Positions 2,468 to 9,008 of a DNA stretch of 64,000 nt are shown piece by piece. This stretch comes from an uncultured Roseburia sp. (lineage in GTDB: Bacteria; Bacillota; Clostridia; Lachnospirales; Lachnospiraceae). The DNA lies in NCBI GenBank assembly GCA_947573605.1, contig CANPGM010000013.1, forward strand, positions 1-64,000, written 5' to 3'. The translations under genes were made by a program, and so were the position numbers. The notes below the pieces were generated by a model. That model did no database searches. It saw only the letters and a list, made by a program, of their open reading frames with translations, and was not told the DNA's origin. How positions within the stretch are numbered: the stretch's first letter is position 1; the number at the start of each line of letters is the position of its first letter.

Positions 2468-4936
2468 TTATGGATTGCCTGCAAATGATTTACACTCGAA
2501 TACCACCGTATCTTTTCTCAATGTAACTACAACCGTATCTCCTCGTTTTGCTCTTCCTTCCAAAATTTCTTCGGCAAGTTTATCTTCCATTTCATTTTGA
2601 ATTTTCCGGCGGAGAGGCCTTGCGCCGTACTTAGGCTCATAGGCTTTATCCACAATATAACTTTTGACACAGTCTCTGACTGTCAGCGTAATTCCCATCT
2701 GTTCGCTGCAGCGATTTGTCAGATCTTTCAGCATCAAAGACACAATCTGCTTCATATCCGCTTTGTTTAAAGAACGAAATACGATTGTTTCGTCGATTCG
2801 ATTTAAAAATTCAGGCTTAAAAATGCGGCGCACTTCCTCCATTACACTGTTTTTCATGCGCTCATAATTCTCTTTCTCGTCGTCAGAAGAAGAAAATCCA
2901 AGCTTCTTCGGCTCTACGATTGACTGCGCTCCTGCGTTTGAGGTCATAATAATAATCGTGTTTTTAAAGTCAACTTTCCTTCCCTGGGAATCTGTGATAT
3001 GCCCGTCGTCCAACACCTGCAGCAAAATATTGAATACATCCGGATGCGCCTTTTCAATTTCGTCAAACAGAATTACCGAGTAGGGATTGCGCCTTACCTT
3101 TTCGCTGAGCTGGCCGCCCTCGCCGTGTCCGACGTAACCGGGCGGAGAACCGATCATTTTAGATACACTATGCTTTTCCATATATTCGGACATATCGACG
3201 CGGATCATGGACTGTTCGTTCCCGAAAACCGCCTCTGCCAGTGCTTTGGAGATCTCCGTTTTTCCTACTCCTGTGGGACCGAGAAACAAAAACGATCCGA
3301 TCGGACGCTTTGGATCTTTTAAACCGACTCGCCCCCGTCTGACGGCCTTTGCAACGGCCGACACCGCTTCTTCCTGCCCTACGACGCGCAAATGCAATGT
3401 TTTTTCCAGCTTCTTTAAACGTTCCGTCTCGGCTTCCGCCAGCTTTTTTACGGGAATTTTCGTCCAGCCGGAAACAACGTCCGCTACTGCGTCCTCATCT
3501 ACGATTAATGTTTTTTTCTGCATTTCCTTTCTGGCCTTTGCCGAAAGCTTTGCCGACTTTTTTTCAAGCTCTTCTTTCTCCTGTTTACAGCGTTTCGCCT
3601 CTTCCATATCGCCTTTGGCAAGCGCCTCTTCAAGGCAAAGTTCAAATTCCTGCGCCTGTTTTTTCAGTTCCGCTTCCTCCAGCGTATGTTTTGTACTGCC
3701 GAGCCGCACTTTTGCCGCCGCTTCATCCATAAGGTCAATCGCCTTATCGGGAAGAAAACGATCGTTGATGTAACGTGCCGACAGCCGGACCGCCGCCTCT
3801 ATCGCTTCATCCAGAATCTGTACCTTATGATGTCTTTCATAGTGCCCCTTAAGTCCCCGAAGGATTTCCACACATTGTTCCTCGCTGGGTTCTTCTACCG
3901 TTACCGGCTGAAAACGTCGTTCCAGTGCGGCGTCCTTTTCCACGTATTTACGATACTCTTCAATTGTAGTTGCGCCAATCATCTGGATCTCTCCGCGGGC
4001 AAGCGCCGGCTTTAATATATTCGACGCGTCGATGGCACCTTCCGCTCCGCCTGCACCGATTATCGTATGAAGCTCGTCAACAAAGAGCAGGATATTCCCG
4101 GCCCCCGTCACTTCACGAATTACTTTTTTAATCCGTTCTTCAAATTCTCCTCTGTATTTTGAGCCTGCAACAATTCCCGACAGATCGAGCGATACCACTC
4201 TCTTATCCTGTACGGCTTCAGGTACCGTACCGGAAACGATGCGCTCCGCAATTCCCTCAATAATTGCTGTTTTTCCAACGCCCGGCTCTCCGATCAGACA
4301 GGGATTATTTTTGGTTCTTCTGCTTAAAATCTGAATTACGCGCCGGATTTCTTCTTCTCTTCCGACTACGGGATCAAGCGCGTTCTCTCTCGCAAGCTTC
4401 GTGATATCTCTTGAATACTGATCCAGTACAGGTGTTCCTTCACTGCTTTTGCGCCGCCCGTTTCTGCCGTTCGGCAGCTCCTCTCTGTACTGATTTACGT
4501 CTTCGCCCATCGCCTGCAATGTTTCCGAATAGGCCTTTGACAAATTCATGCCCATTGTATGAAAGAGCCTTGACGCTGCGCAATCCGTTTCTTTTATGAT
4601 TGCAAGAAGCAGGTGTTCGGTTGCAATTACATCCGAATGAAACCGCACCGCCTCTTTGTATGCGCCTTCCAATACCCGTTCGGCTTTGGGCGAATAACCG
4701 CCGCGCTCCATAAGCGCGGTTTCCGACGCCGGGGAAATCAATTCTTTAATCAGCTCAACCACTGTTTCGTAACTGATATTGTTATCATTTAAAATTCTTG
4801 CCGCAACGCCTGTTCCTTCTTTTAAAAGACCCGCCAGAAGATGCTCGGTTCCGATATAATTATGATGCAGTATTTTCGCTATTTTTCCGGCAAAATCAAC
4901 TGCCTTTTTTGCCCTCGCTGTATATGGTAACTGCAT
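2468..4936 (-). CDS. clpC: ATP-dependent Clp protease ATP-binding subunit ClpC
   Basis: ClpC, 822 aa, an HSP100 unfoldase that delivers substrates to ClpP. Two N-terminal Clp-N repeats cover about residues 5-145. AAA1 has Walker A GEPGVGKT at 216-223 and Walker [11 protein letters not shown] coiled middle domain follows at roughly 400-480, and AAA2 has GPTGVGKTE and [13 protein letters not shown]. The ATG at 4936 follows GGGAGG. In Bacillus-type genomes clpC lies behind ctsR-mcsA-mcsB. Here none of these is present, and the upstream neighbour, 43 bases away, is a cohesin-domain membrane protein. No CtsR-type operator was recognised, so transcription may come from the promoter at 8980-9008 or an internal one. 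Confidence 0.97.
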
Positions 4937-4978: not shown

Positions 4979-6814
4979 CTATAGATCGTTAAAATCTATG
5001 ACATCGATATCTTTTTTCTCATTACTCTTTTCCAATGTTTCTTTTTTATGACCGCTTTCTTTATGCAATGCGCCGCTGCGCAAAGTCTCCTTATACGAAA
5101 CCGCCTTATGCGACGCGCCTTTGTAGGAAAACTCTTTTCCCCGGACTTCCTCTTCCGTCTCTTCCTCCGGCTCTTCTTCCAAGTCATCCGAATTTATCTT
5201 CTCCCGCTTTGTTCTTTTTTTCTGCTGTTTTTTCGGTTCCGGCGTTTCCTCTTCTTCCAACTCGTCCTCGTCCGAATCCCAATCGTCGTCTCCGGTACTC
5301 ATTTTTATCTTGCGCCAGCCAAAAATTACGAGATTGAGAATCAGAATGAAAAGCAGCGCAATCACAATACCGAGAACCGCAATTGTATTTCTGGAAGAAG
5401 TCTTTAAGTCCCTGTATTTATCCGAAAGTTTATTATACTGTTCCTGCAGGTACCGTTCATTTTCCGATTCTGTTTCGGACGCAGTATCGGCAAAAGCGTT
5501 TAGCGCTCTCTGGTAAGTGCCTTCTTCACCGTCATACTGATACCACCCTTCCGTTCCGTCCCGGTTTACACCATAAAACAGATAAAATCCGGAAGCGTCT
5601 CCTCCCTGATACGCAGTTACACTCCTGCCTTCCGCAGTCTGAAACGATGTCTGCAGATACTGCTCCGGTACGGTAAAATCAACCGGCGCAAGCAGCGGAA
5701 TTACGTAATTCTGCGGACTGGCCAGCTTTGCGAAATCATAAATGGTATCTCTGGTTTCGTCATAAATATAAAGCTGTCCTTCTTCGCCTGCTCCTTTTAA
5801 AAAAAGAAGCGACATCGTTCCTTTATTAAAGCTAAGCCCCTGATAACTGTTGCCGCGGCAATTCACGGTTACGGGCGTAAAATCCGCCGGGATGACCTCT
5901 TCGGGAACGGCCGACACAATTTTATAGACACTGCCGTTTACCGCGATCTCTCCTTCCGTCGGTAAGTCTTCCTCCGGTTCTTTTGCTCCGCCCGGTTCCT
6001 CTGCTCCCGGAGAAACCGGCGGTTCGGTCGTTCCTGCCGCCTGCCTGGTTATTTTAATTGTGTAAGTGGCCGTTGTACCGTTTTCCGCCTTTACAACTAT
6101 TTTCACATCATTCGTTCCGACAGAAAGACTTGTATTCCCGCTTACGGATTCCACCGTCGCTTTCTGATTGACCGGAACTGCGTTTACGGCAACCGAAGTC
6201 ACATCGTTTGCTACCGTTGCCGTATAGTTTACATTACTGCCGCTAAATGCAGGGGAAAGCGTTCCCGGAGAAATACTCAGCGTTTTCAGAGAATTATCGG
6301 CTGACAAAACCGCCGTGTTCCCACCGGCGCTTCCGCCTGTATTTCCGCCTGTATTTCCACCGGTACTTTCGCCCGGATTGGACGCCGCATTATTTACCGT
6401 AACGCTGGCGCTGCTTCCCTCCATTGACTCCAGTTCTTCATTTGTATCAAAGTTCACTCCATCCGAAGCCGAGAGCGTAAGAGACGACGTTCCGGCAGAA
6501 ATTGCTTTCAAAGTTACGCTGAAACTGTCGGTCGGCACGGTAACGCTGCCGCCACCGCCACCGTAAGTGGAGGCGGAACAGCTTACAAACTCTAAAATTC
6601 CGGCATCATAGCTTAATGTCATTGTCGCCAGAGCGCTGCCCCCTGATTCAGTTGTCGCCCTGACTGTAACCGTAACCGTATCTCCGATGTTCAAAGTACC
6701 TTTCGATACGGCAATTGAGGTTTTTCCCGCTGCCGCCCACGCCGTTTCTCCAAAACCGGCCAGCGTACCAATCAGCATGAGAAAAACCAGTAAAATTCCT
6801 ATCCTTTTTTTCAT
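4979..6814 (-). CDS. membrane-anchored cohesin-domain protein
   Basis: A 611-aa protein with a signal peptide (MKKRIGILLVFLMLIG, ending near AWAAA). Next come a cohesin-like beta sandwich (about 30-140), a Gly/Asn/Thr linker, a cadherin-like beta-sandwich repeat (about 170-255) and a second extracellular beta-rich region (about 280-440). A coiled stretch leads into one transmembrane helix (about 474-498). The ~110-residue cytoplasmic tail is very rich in Lys and Glu. Cohesins bind dockerins; the gene immediately upstream encodes a secreted enzyme ending in a dockerin, and the two overlap by ATGA. The inference is that this protein anchors that enzyme at the outer membrane face. The function of the charged tail is unknown. 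Confident for architecture, less so for the binding partner. Confidence 0.88.
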   Translation of the reverse strand: MKKRIGILLVFLMLIGTLAGFGETAWAAAGKTSIAVSKGTLNIGDTVTVTVRATTESGGSALATMTLSYDAGILEFVSCSASTYGGGGGSVTVPTDSFSVTLKAISAGTSSLTLSASDGVNFDTNEELESMEGSSASVTVNNAASNPGESTGGNTGGNTGGSAGGNTAVLSADNSLKTLSISPGTLSPAFSGSNVNYTATVANDVTSVAVNAVPVNQKATVESVSGNTSLSVGTNDVKIVVKAENGTTATYTIKITRQAAGTTEPPVSPGAEEPGGAKEPEEDLPTEGEIAVNGSVYKIVSAVPEEVIPADFTPVTVNCRGNSYQGLSFNKGTMSLLFLKGAGEEGQLYIYDETRDTIYDFAKLASPQNYVIPLLAPVDFTVPEQYLQTSFQTAEGRSVTAYQGGDASGFYLFYGVNRDGTEGWYQYDGEEGTYQRALNAFADTASETESENERYLQEQYNKLSDKYRDLKTSSRNTIAVLGIVIALLFILILNLVIFGWRKIKMSTGDDDWDSDEDELEEEETPEPKKQQKKRTKREKINSDDLEEEPEEETEEEVRGKEFSYKGASHKAVSYKETLRSGALHKESGHKKETLEKSNEKKDIDVIDFNDL

Positions 6815-8892
6815 ATGTTTCCCCCGTAATCATTGATTATCTGTGAAATATTAAGAATGTGCTTCTGCAGCAGAACAATATCTAAATTGGACACTCTGCC
6901 GTCTCTTCCGATATCGGCCGCCTTTTCATACGCGCCGGAAAGCTGTACGATTCCGAGTATCTGTTTTTGAAGCATAACAAGGTCAATGTTCGATATTTTT
7001 CCGTCACCATTAATATCACCATAAATAACAATATCATACTGTTTTACAACGTTTCCGTTTACATAAACCGTTACCTTATCTCCGGTTCCTGCAATTCCGG
7101 TATTTTCCGCGCCGTCCGCTTTTAAAATTTTAACGCTGCAATTTACCGCCGAAATATTGGAAAGCACGGCGCCGACTGAAGTCTGCGGCGCAATTCCGGT
7201 AACAATTTCGTCCACATGATAAGGAGTAGAAATCGAGGCGTTGTCCGCTACGATAATCGAACCTTCTCCCGGCGTCTCCGGTTGACCCGGCGTTTTTTGT
7301 CCTCTGACAATATTAATATTGTAACTTCTGGACATTCCCGCCTGTGAAATGCAGGTAATGCTGATTCTGTTTTCACCGTAATTCAAAGAGTAGCTGCCCG
7401 TACCGGTTACGGCTGACTTTCCCGCTACGGAAGTCGCTTCAATAGCGACGGAATCGGTTCCTTCCGCCACAATTAAAGAATACTCCGTTATGGAAGGCTG
7501 AAACGACGGCGTTAAGCTGTGACCGGAAACCAAAAGAGCAGAAAGCCAGTTATTCGGATTTCCTCTGTCCACAAACGAAACGGCCGCCTCCGGCATATTC
7601 AGATAGACCGGAATCCGAAACACAAATCCCGTATTTTTGTTTTTATAGGCACGGCCGATGCTGTTCCCTTCCGTAAATGCAGCCATCACATTAGTCATAT
7701 ACTGGTGCGTATACAGGTTCGAAGTATTTACTACATTAAATTTTTCAAAATATACGGTATTCTGCCCCTTTTTCACATAACGATCGGAAATTACTTCGGA
7801 GCCTCCCCGCAGAGATTTATAGATGCTGTCCCAGCCCATTTTTCTGGCGTATTCCAAACCGTTTATTATGGAAGAAGCCGTCGACGTCGTATACGCCCCA
7901 ATGTTAAAATGATTAAAATATCCGTTATAGCCGGAATATGTACCGGAAATCAAAGGACTTTTTCCGTCGCCCTGTTCCTGTTTACAGCGTGAGGCAAGAT
8001 GATAGGGACTGACTTCCAGGGATTTTCCAATCTCCGCAAAAGTGTCCGCATATCCTTTTATAATCCCGTCCGTATCGGCAAAACTTCCCGCCATAAAGGT
8101 ATTTTCGAGGATATTGGAGACCCCTTCCGCCGTCTGATATTCTTCATATTCCAGAGTTTCAAACTGAAAAATATAATCTTCATTTAAAAAATTACGAGGG
8201 TCCATGCAGTAAGCGATATATTCTGACGAAGCGCATACCCAGTCAGCTCCGTCAAAACCGTACCACTGATTCGTACTCCAGTTATACGCCGTAGGATCCG
8301 TTGACTTTCTCGAATCATTTACTGTATTCTGAACGAGATTTCTGCCCGTGACGCTTTCGTTTTTCACGGCATCCGACCAGTCAAGTCCGGTAGGAATCGG
8401 AATAAACTTCCAATCCGGGTATTTTTGATGCAGAAGGGCAAGCGGTTTCGCATAACTCTCCGGGAACCCTGCGGCAATGAGCTCTTGCATATACGCGGCG
8501 TCTGTTCCCTCTCCCGGCGGTTCCTGCCCCGCGCCGTCAATTTCCAGATAATCTCCGCAAATCCAGCCTGTATAAGAAATATCCTGTAAAGTAAAAGAAA
8601 TCTGATACCAGATTTTATCATTCTGCGCTAACGATTCGCCCAATACCGCAACCTGTGTCCCGACGCTTACGCTGACCAAAACGGAATAACCCGTTCCGGC
8701 GCCGGAACGAACATTGACGCCGGTTGACGCATTTACAACGCGGCCCGTGCGCGGAGCGTCATTTTCAGCAAATGCGGTAATTGATCCTCCCATCTGCGTC
8801 AATGCGCAAAACAACCATGCAAAAACCACGATCCATACGGCCGCCGTCATCCAGTGTAAACGCATGTTCTCTTTCGTTATGCTTTTTCTCAT
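6811..8892 (-). CDS. secreted glucosaminidase with SH3 and dockerin domains
   Basis: 693 aa; the start at 8892 has GGAGG five bases upstream. After a signal/anchor segment come a bacterial SH3 domain (about 50-115), an N-acetylglucosaminidase domain of the endo-beta-N-acetylglucosaminidase type (about 200-430, with CKQEQGDGKSPL and FNIGAY), a cadherin-like repeat (about 450-535) and a linker. It ends in a type-I-like dockerin. Both dockerin calcium loops are canonical: DINGDGKISNID and DIGRDGRVSNLD, each followed by a LQK-containing helix. The expected role is cleavage of peptidoglycan glycan strands. The dockerin should bind a cohesin, and the next gene encodes one with a 4-base overlap. A good promoter lies at 8980-9008, so this is the first gene of its operon. 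Confidence 0.92.
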   Translation of the reverse strand: MRKSITKENMRLHWMTAAVWIVVFAWLFCALTQMGGSITAFAENDAPRTGRVVNASTGVNVRSGAGTGYSVLVSVSVGTQVAVLGESLAQNDKIWYQISFTLQDISYTGWICGDYLEIDGAGQEPPGEGTDAAYMQELIAAGFPESYAKPLALLHQKYPDWKFIPIPTGLDWSDAVKNESVTGRNLVQNTVNDSRKSTDPTAYNWSTNQWYGFDGADWVCASSEYIAYCMDPRNFLNEDYIFQFETLEYEEYQTAEGVSNILENTFMAGSFADTDGIIKGYADTFAEIGKSLEVSPYHLASRCKQEQGDGKSPLISGTYSGYNGYFNHFNIGAYTTSTASSIINGLEYARKMGWDSIYKSLRGGSEVISDRYVKKGQNTVYFEKFNVVNTSNLYTHQYMTNVMAAFTEGNSIGRAYKNKNTGFVFRIPVYLNMPEAAVSFVDRGNPNNWLSALLVSGHSLTPSFQPSITEYSLIVAEGTDSVAIEATSVAGKSAVTGTGSYSLNYGENRISITCISQAGMSRSYNINIVRGQKTPGQPETPGEGSIIVADNASISTPYHVDEIVTGIAPQTSVGAVLSNISAVNCSVKILKADGAENTGIAGTGDKVTVYVNGNVVKQYDIVIYGDINGDGKISNIDLVMLQKQILGIVQLSGAYEKAADIGRDGRVSNLDIVLLQKHILNISQIINDYGGNI

Positions 8893-8979: not shown

Positions 8980-9008
8980 ATTATATGAGATTCCGCATAC
9001 AGCGTCAA
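8980..9008 (-). promoter_or_regulatory. promoter of the dockerin/cohesin operon
   Basis: Minus-strand -35 TTGACG (9003-9008), 17-base spacer, -10 TATAAT (8980-8985), about 90 bases upstream of the glucosaminidase start. Confidence 0.8.

Follow-up and report, generated by a model that had tools for sequence, protein, structure and literature searches.

A putative cohesin–dockerin device for holding a peptidoglycan hydrolase at the membrane in Roseburia and its relatives

The best-known role of cohesins and dockerins is that of joints in cellulosomes. Members of both families also occur outside cellulosomes, and this general phenomenon was reportedly treated by Peer et al. in 2009, a work cited in PMC4300822. 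What, then, could such a joint do between a cell-wall hydrolase and a membrane protein encoded side by side in a gut bacterium? The question is raised by a locus in a 64,000-nucleotide stretch of DNA from an uncultured Roseburia sp. (GCA_947573605.1, contig CANPGM010000013.1, positions 1 to 64,000; hereafter the window), in which the gene for a SagB-like glucosaminidase with a C-terminal dockerin (the hydrolase) overlaps that for the anchor, a protein that spans the membrane once and carries a cohesin at its N-terminus.

We propose, at a probability of roughly 0.7, that both proteins form a dedicated device in which the cohesin–dockerin pair holds the peptidoglycan hydrolase at the membrane. 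The dockerin of the exported glucosaminidase would plug into the membrane partner made from the next gene, whose one cohesin would lie at the outward-facing end, so that the peptidoglycan-cutting enzyme would be held on the outer face of the membrane, where it could trim new or membrane-near glycan strands. A two-protein device of this kind had been suggested by the original prediction, and what can be observed directly, i.e., the domain architecture, the cohesin fold, the conserved adjacency of the genes, the symmetry of the dockerin and its covariation with the cohesin, argues for it at the level of sequences and models. We infer binding, its calcium dependence and the location of the device from these data, and a role in glycan trimming is suggested by analogy to SagB–SpdC of Staphylococcus aureus.

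Both the joint and the enzyme family are known; new are their use and the private, co-evolving one-to-one form, and a literature search yielded no description of such a hydrolase–anchor pair. In Roseburia/Agathobacter gut bacteria, the cohesin–dockerin joint seems to be used in routine maintenance of the cell wall and to link a single enzyme with a single anchor through surfaces that evolve in step. Changes in binding specificity could be studied in dozens of naturally occurring cognate pairs whose divergence has been measured, and the device would represent a testable membrane-held counterpart of SagB–SpdC built from different, cellulosomal parts.

Domain layout of the hydrolase and the anchor

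The features of the two genes are as follows.

6811..8892, minus strand: hydrolase gene (GLU), 693 amino acids; N-terminal hydrophobic segment, SH3_3, SagB-like glucosaminidase, Cadherin-like, linker domain, dockerin
8542..8721, minus strand: SH3_3 domain of the hydrolase, residues 58-117; 35 bits against a cut-off of 27
7603..8331, minus strand: glucosaminidase domain, residues 188-430; E306 aligns with the Glu of SagB 'LLETG'
7303..7515, minus strand: Cadherin-like domain of the hydrolase, residues 460-530
6853..7023, minus strand: type I dockerin of the hydrolase, residues 624-680; two calcium-loop repeats
6811..6814, minus strand: ATGA overlap of the hydrolase and anchor genes
4979..6814, minus strand: anchor gene (COH), 611 amino acids; signal peptide, cohesin, Cadherin-like, unnamed beta domain, one transmembrane segment, acidic tail
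6386..6733, minus strand: cohesin domain of the anchor, residues 28-143, N-terminal
6041..6283, minus strand: Cadherin-like domain of the anchor, residues 178-258
5315..5383, minus strand: transmembrane segment of the anchor, residues 478-500, read from sequence
4982..5314, minus strand: acidic cytoplasmic tail of the anchor, ending DVIDFNDL

This layout agrees with the earlier description of a secreted SH3-glucosaminidase ending in two dockerin loops, as SH3_3, the SagB-like domain and Dockerin_1 were all matched, and of an ATGA overlap with the gene for a membrane protein with one transmembrane segment. As a general feature of the pair the overlap was rejected, being present in only 5 of 89 other pairs when the start of the longest frame is taken.

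The catalytic domain is homologous to SagB and LytB-type glucosaminidases, with E306 invariant in 22/22 aligned sequences. It matched PDB 6u0o_B (2.9e-16), which we take to be the SagB–SpdC structure, and NF052642 with 77 bits, below the curated score of 425 bits for proteins that NCBI names SagB. According to the part of PMC10581084 used here, SpdC scaffolds SagB for cleavage in S. aureus. The peptidoglycan release complex formed by these two and the pair in the window have in common that a SagB-family glucosaminidase is assigned to one membrane partner. However, SpdC is described in the same part of that source as a CAAX-protease homologue, whereas the partner in the window is single-pass and the joint would be a cohesin–dockerin pair; the SpdC-type CAAX-protease family was absent among the Pfam matches of the anchor up to E 1.

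The cohesin label required proof, because Pfam does not recognise the domain and the genome is without a match to PF00963: Pfam and NCBIfam gave the N-terminal domain of the anchor no cohesin label, and a PF00963 search of the whole genome of the window returned no match, with the limit that this profile also misses the cohesin in the window. A family profile of the cohesin (A2) was therefore used both for detection and for comparison with PDB sequences, where it matched 3l8q (4.1e-11, positions 4-57), 5g5d (1.3e-7, 1-47) and 2jh2 (1.9e-4, 3-117), with antibody chains among the matches from E 0.015 on. The AlphaFold2 model of the domain (pLDDT 93.9) is a nine-strand beta-sandwich matching solved cohesins, which are its best structural matches. 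By profile and predicted fold the domain is a cohesin, with putative dockerin binding. The closest solved folds, those of Clostridium perfringens NagJ (2jh2) and GH33 (2vo8), likewise represent single cohesins outside cellulosomes, but sit on glycosidases, whereas the cohesin in the window sits on a membrane anchor.

Conservation, symmetry and covariation

The original prediction presupposed that the two genes are conserved together, and this is what was found in a genus sample of 36 genomes of the Roseburia/Agathobacter group (defined by named relatives, out of at least 60): the hydrolase and anchor genes are direct neighbours in 29 of them, and clpC is next in 27 of these 29 pairs, while the contig ends in the other two. 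Among the 29 genomes, the dockerin frame is broken in G033, G018 is without a dockerin, and the anchor of G032 was recognised by the cohesin profile only. Counted by PF00404 and the A2 profile across the 36 genomes, several of which are incomplete, both domains are present in 28, the dockerin only in 1 (G031), the cohesin only in 2 (G018, G035) and neither in 5, a linked presence with a Fisher p of 0.0003, for which kinship was not corrected. Exactly one Pfam dockerin and one family cohesin occur in 13/36 genomes, one of which (G034) is a single 3.59-Mb contig, and in 13/13 they are on the same contig and adjacent, with gaps of 114-223 bp. Losses took more than one form: in G012, where no dockerin was found with PF00404, the SH3 part of the hydrolase is fused to the cadherin and tail of the anchor and the catalytic domain, dockerin and cohesin are all gone, and G013 has an anchor without a cohesin, with hydrolase and dockerin not found in its genome.

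A second, named collection comprised the best 80 of 493 loci, some from the same genomes as the genus sample. A dockerin with a same-strand neighbouring cohesin gene was found in 42/80. Another 7/80 have a dockerin without such a neighbour, and five of these seven have a divergently oriented neighbour that is the protein at L158, which scores 36.6 bits on PF00963 (cut-off 24.1), or its homologue. A cohesin without an intact dockerin by profile occurs in 22/80, including L107 (broken frame) and L123 (the contig of G018). In the remainder, a contig end cuts the locus (4/80), neither domain is found by profile (3/80; one of these, L179, has dockerin-like loops by eye) or the hydrolase frame is missing in the list (2/80). 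The dockerin-bearing pairs occur in distant groups, with records titled Oscillospiraceae, Bacilli and Lachnospiraceae, and the dockerin state needs at least 5 changes on a quick tree.

The dockerin of the hydrolase scores 53.5 bits against PF00404 (Dockerin_1; cut-off 22.9), and two F-hand calcium-loop repeats can be read, with SNI at positions 9-11 of one and SNL in the other, i.e., the near-identical contact positions that are a signature of dual-mode binding. We compared repeat 1 with repeat 2 of each protein against shuffled pairings in 60 non-redundant dockerins (2000 shuffles). The repeats agree at position 9 in 44/60 (14.8 expected), 10 in 51/60 (9.7), 11 in 33/60 (13.0), 13 in 46/60 (21.4), 14 in 57/60 (14.7), 15 in 16/60 (4.6), 17 in 58/60 (19.6) and 18 in 49/60 (23.3); the observed count was reached by 0/2000 shuffles at every one of them. 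Symmetry also holds at positions 20 and 21 (0/2000) and position 3 (2/2000); no symmetry was seen at positions 2, 4, 7, 8, 16, 19 and 22 (at least 81/2000 shuffles; e.g., position 4 with 7/60 against 7.8 expected). In the part of PMC5141474 used here, cohesin contacts are assigned to helix positions 11 and 12 of the dockerin and to cohesin strands 8-3-6-5, and the main symmetric positions roughly correspond to the contacts named there, in a numbering that seems offset by one. The motif varies among species (SN, NV, NA, TI, SL and others) yet is mirrored inside most proteins, and such a mirrored but species-variable motif would be expected of a dual-mode dockerin whose private partner drifts. 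Cellulosomal type I systems with cell-surface anchoring scaffoldins share the domain families and, as far as the same part of PMC5141474 goes, the symmetric dockerin repeats with contact pairs. They differ from the pair in the window, whose enzyme cuts peptidoglycan and would have one private partner; a multi-cohesin scaffoldin was not found with the A2 profile or with PF00963, which also overlooks the cohesin of the anchor and might miss a distant scaffoldin.

Covariation was assessed by partial correlation of identity matrices with 500 Mantel permutations. Near-copies (catalytic identity of at least 0.985), L094 and L107 (whose frames break ahead of the dockerin) and species missing a compared domain were dropped, which left 58 species with all domains out of 91 pairs, and 60 dockerins for the symmetry test. 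Dockerin and cohesin are correlated at a partial r of 0.50 given the catalytic and both cadherin-like domains (0/500 permutations), while the controls, each given the other domains, were -0.02 for hydrolase cadherin and cohesin and -0.15 for dockerin and anchor cadherin. Within the Roseburia/Agathobacter set (35 rows) the value is 0.40; including the middle domain of the anchor as well gives 0.38, and leaving out L076 and L078 gives 0.40 (0/500 in all three cases). The presumed contact positions of the dockerin, a set chosen from the symmetry result, covary with the cohesin at 0.47, the other dockerin positions at 0.14.

The sister loci L076 and L078 illustrate this pattern: their catalytic domains are 79%, hydrolase cadherins 85%, anchor cadherins 93% and anchor middle domains 83% identical, whereas dockerin (49%) and cohesin (39%) have diverged. 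At the DNA level (windows of 120), identity is 0.38-0.48 from the final portion of the dockerin through the gene junction and across the cohesin, compared to about 0.6 in the linker before the dockerin, 0.68-0.92 in most of the rest and 0.39-0.53 in the acidic tail. L078 and the more distant L079 share 80% in the dockerin but only 41% in the cohesin, and a simple transfer of both domains from the L079 lineage is therefore unsupported.

Competing explanations

Several observations weigh against a dedicated device. Mapped to strands 8-3-6-5 alone, the covarying cohesin positions reach only a marginal p of 0.051, and a mapping with loops added (1e-5) is not relied on, since the loops were picked after the values had been seen. 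The original prediction had depended on a cohesin fold with a dockerin-facing surface: the fold is present by profile and AlphaFold2 model, while the surface is supported only marginally. Further partial correlations (cadherin–cadherin 0.34, cohesin–anchor cadherin 0.26, cohesin–catalytic domain 0.40) lie above zero, and kinship was therefore not fully removed. Dockerin and cohesin are also encoded only about 120 bp apart, and this linkage could make part of the covariation. The idea that one donor always supplies both domains in a joint exchange did not survive a simple nearest-relative test: in 42/58 species the dockerin or the cohesin points to a closest relative other than that of the catalytic domain, and in only 4 of these 42 do the two domains agree. 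Moreover, no cohesin neighbour was seen at the two dockerin hydrolase loci L159 and L171.

To the same side belong the 20 of the 80 named loci (besides L107 and L123) at which a dockerin-free hydrolase ends at its cadherin-like domain and the anchor keeps the cohesin-like domain, in many cases with a similar glycine-rich loop (e.g., YGGGGG) and in many cases by clpC. They derive mostly from uncultured Lachnospiraceae, several of them from ruminants, and from Mobilitalea, and PF00404 is unmatched in 19/20 of their genomes. The cohesin-like domain can therefore persist without a dockerin and may have another ligand at these loci. Likewise, G018 (80% complete) and G035 retain the cohesin with no dockerin found, and G035 keeps its anchor with no hydrolase found. 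The claim of a dedicated pair accordingly has adjacency, symmetry and covariation on its side, and these 20 loci together with G018 and G035 against it. An unlikely alternative is that the cohesin-like domain has an older, dockerin-independent ligand, which could be the wall itself or a different hydrolase domain, and that the dockerin came later or binds in part of the family. The stronger covariation of the dockerin contact positions with the cohesin speaks against this explanation, and the spread of dockerin-bearing pairs over distant groups implies that the dockerin need not be late.

Alternatively, the anchor could be a one-cohesin mini-scaffold, a shared dock for several dockerin proteins, which we regard as very unlikely. 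Besides the glucosaminidase, three proteins of the genome of the window carry dockerins, by eye an M60-like peptidase and two subtilases, so that three dockerins over the cut-off and a weak fourth face one cohesin of the anchor's family. However, 13 genomes have only one of each, the two further over-cut-off dockerins differ in their residues at positions 9-11, and each further dockerin protein adjoins a small secreted or membrane protein of its own, those next to the subtilases being paralogues, one with a weak cohesin-profile match. That the apparent co-evolution reflects nothing but physical linkage, with both domains inherited and recombined together across the junction, is hardly probable: the short distance and the continuous divergent stretch of L076/L078 fit, but the signal is concentrated in the dockerin contact positions, and linkage does not predict repeats that mirror each other within one protein.

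Within the reading as a dedicated device, a more far-reaching proposal can be put forward tentatively as a whole. Dockerin and cohesin might form a matched lock-and-key cassette of about 640 bp that is split across the junction, with the dockerin closing the first gene and the cohesin opening the second, and in which one exchange would change both halves with the private match kept; private anchors might be general for surface hydrolases in Lachnospiraceae and relatives, and a conserved cytoplasmic tail might link wall cutting to ClpC.

Gene neighbourhood, anchor tails and related proteins

Two further features lie beside the pair.

2468..4936, minus strand: clpC, next gene of the presumed transcription unit
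8980..9008, minus strand: promoter-like site TTGACG-17-TATAAT, 11/12, upstream of the hydrolase; consensus match only

The clpC neighbour noted originally starts 42 bases past the anchor stop, and three terminator-like sites, consensus matches only, were located, none of them between the genes. CtsR-like sites occur in the window at chance level (8 found, 7.0 expected), and a CtsR search of the genome gave no match, in a set-up that detected Lactococcus lactis alone among 14 control genomes and missed Bacillus subtilis.

The anchor tail ends in a conserved acidic-hydrophobic motif (window 4982-5017), which reads DVIDFNDL here and LEFIDL or FEFEFIN elsewhere. It was found in 44/45 anchors adjoining clpC and in 3/24 others, with 4 anchors undetermined and anchors that are cut by a contig end or identical duplicates excluded. 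In the Roseburia inulinivorans DSM 16841 draft (L094/L107), the hydrolase frame is interrupted immediately ahead of the dockerin and the anchor tail has an odd sequence, through either a draft error or real decay.

The remaining dockerin proteins in the genome of the window, named by eye, are encoded at G000:C57 (L098:172-5678), G000:C7 (L099:4476-12743) and G000:C6 (L097:2238-8711); one of the two subtilases has a sub-cut-off dockerin. Their small neighbours are secreted proteins with one transmembrane or sorting segment each, and those of the subtilases share 33% identity, with the weak cohesin-profile match of one at E 0.001. These could possibly be further private pairs. At L100:2683-9057 and L101:2952-7419, a papain-like protease (by eye) with a C-terminal dockerin is followed by a protein with cohesin, cadherin and transmembrane segment, which is the same design with another enzyme. 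At L102:5472-8752, L185 and L195, a secreted protein with a C-terminal dockerin, which has a weak cohesin-profile match in L102 and L195 and none in L185, precedes a sortase-like protein (by eye); in L102 and L195 a cohesin-like protein follows, with a sorting signal in L102 and cut by the contig end in L195. Proteins arranged as in L102 could be strung into a daisy chain on the wall. In L197, L202 and L203, which represent other families of the order, a cohesin-profile match stands shortly before a dockerin in one chain.

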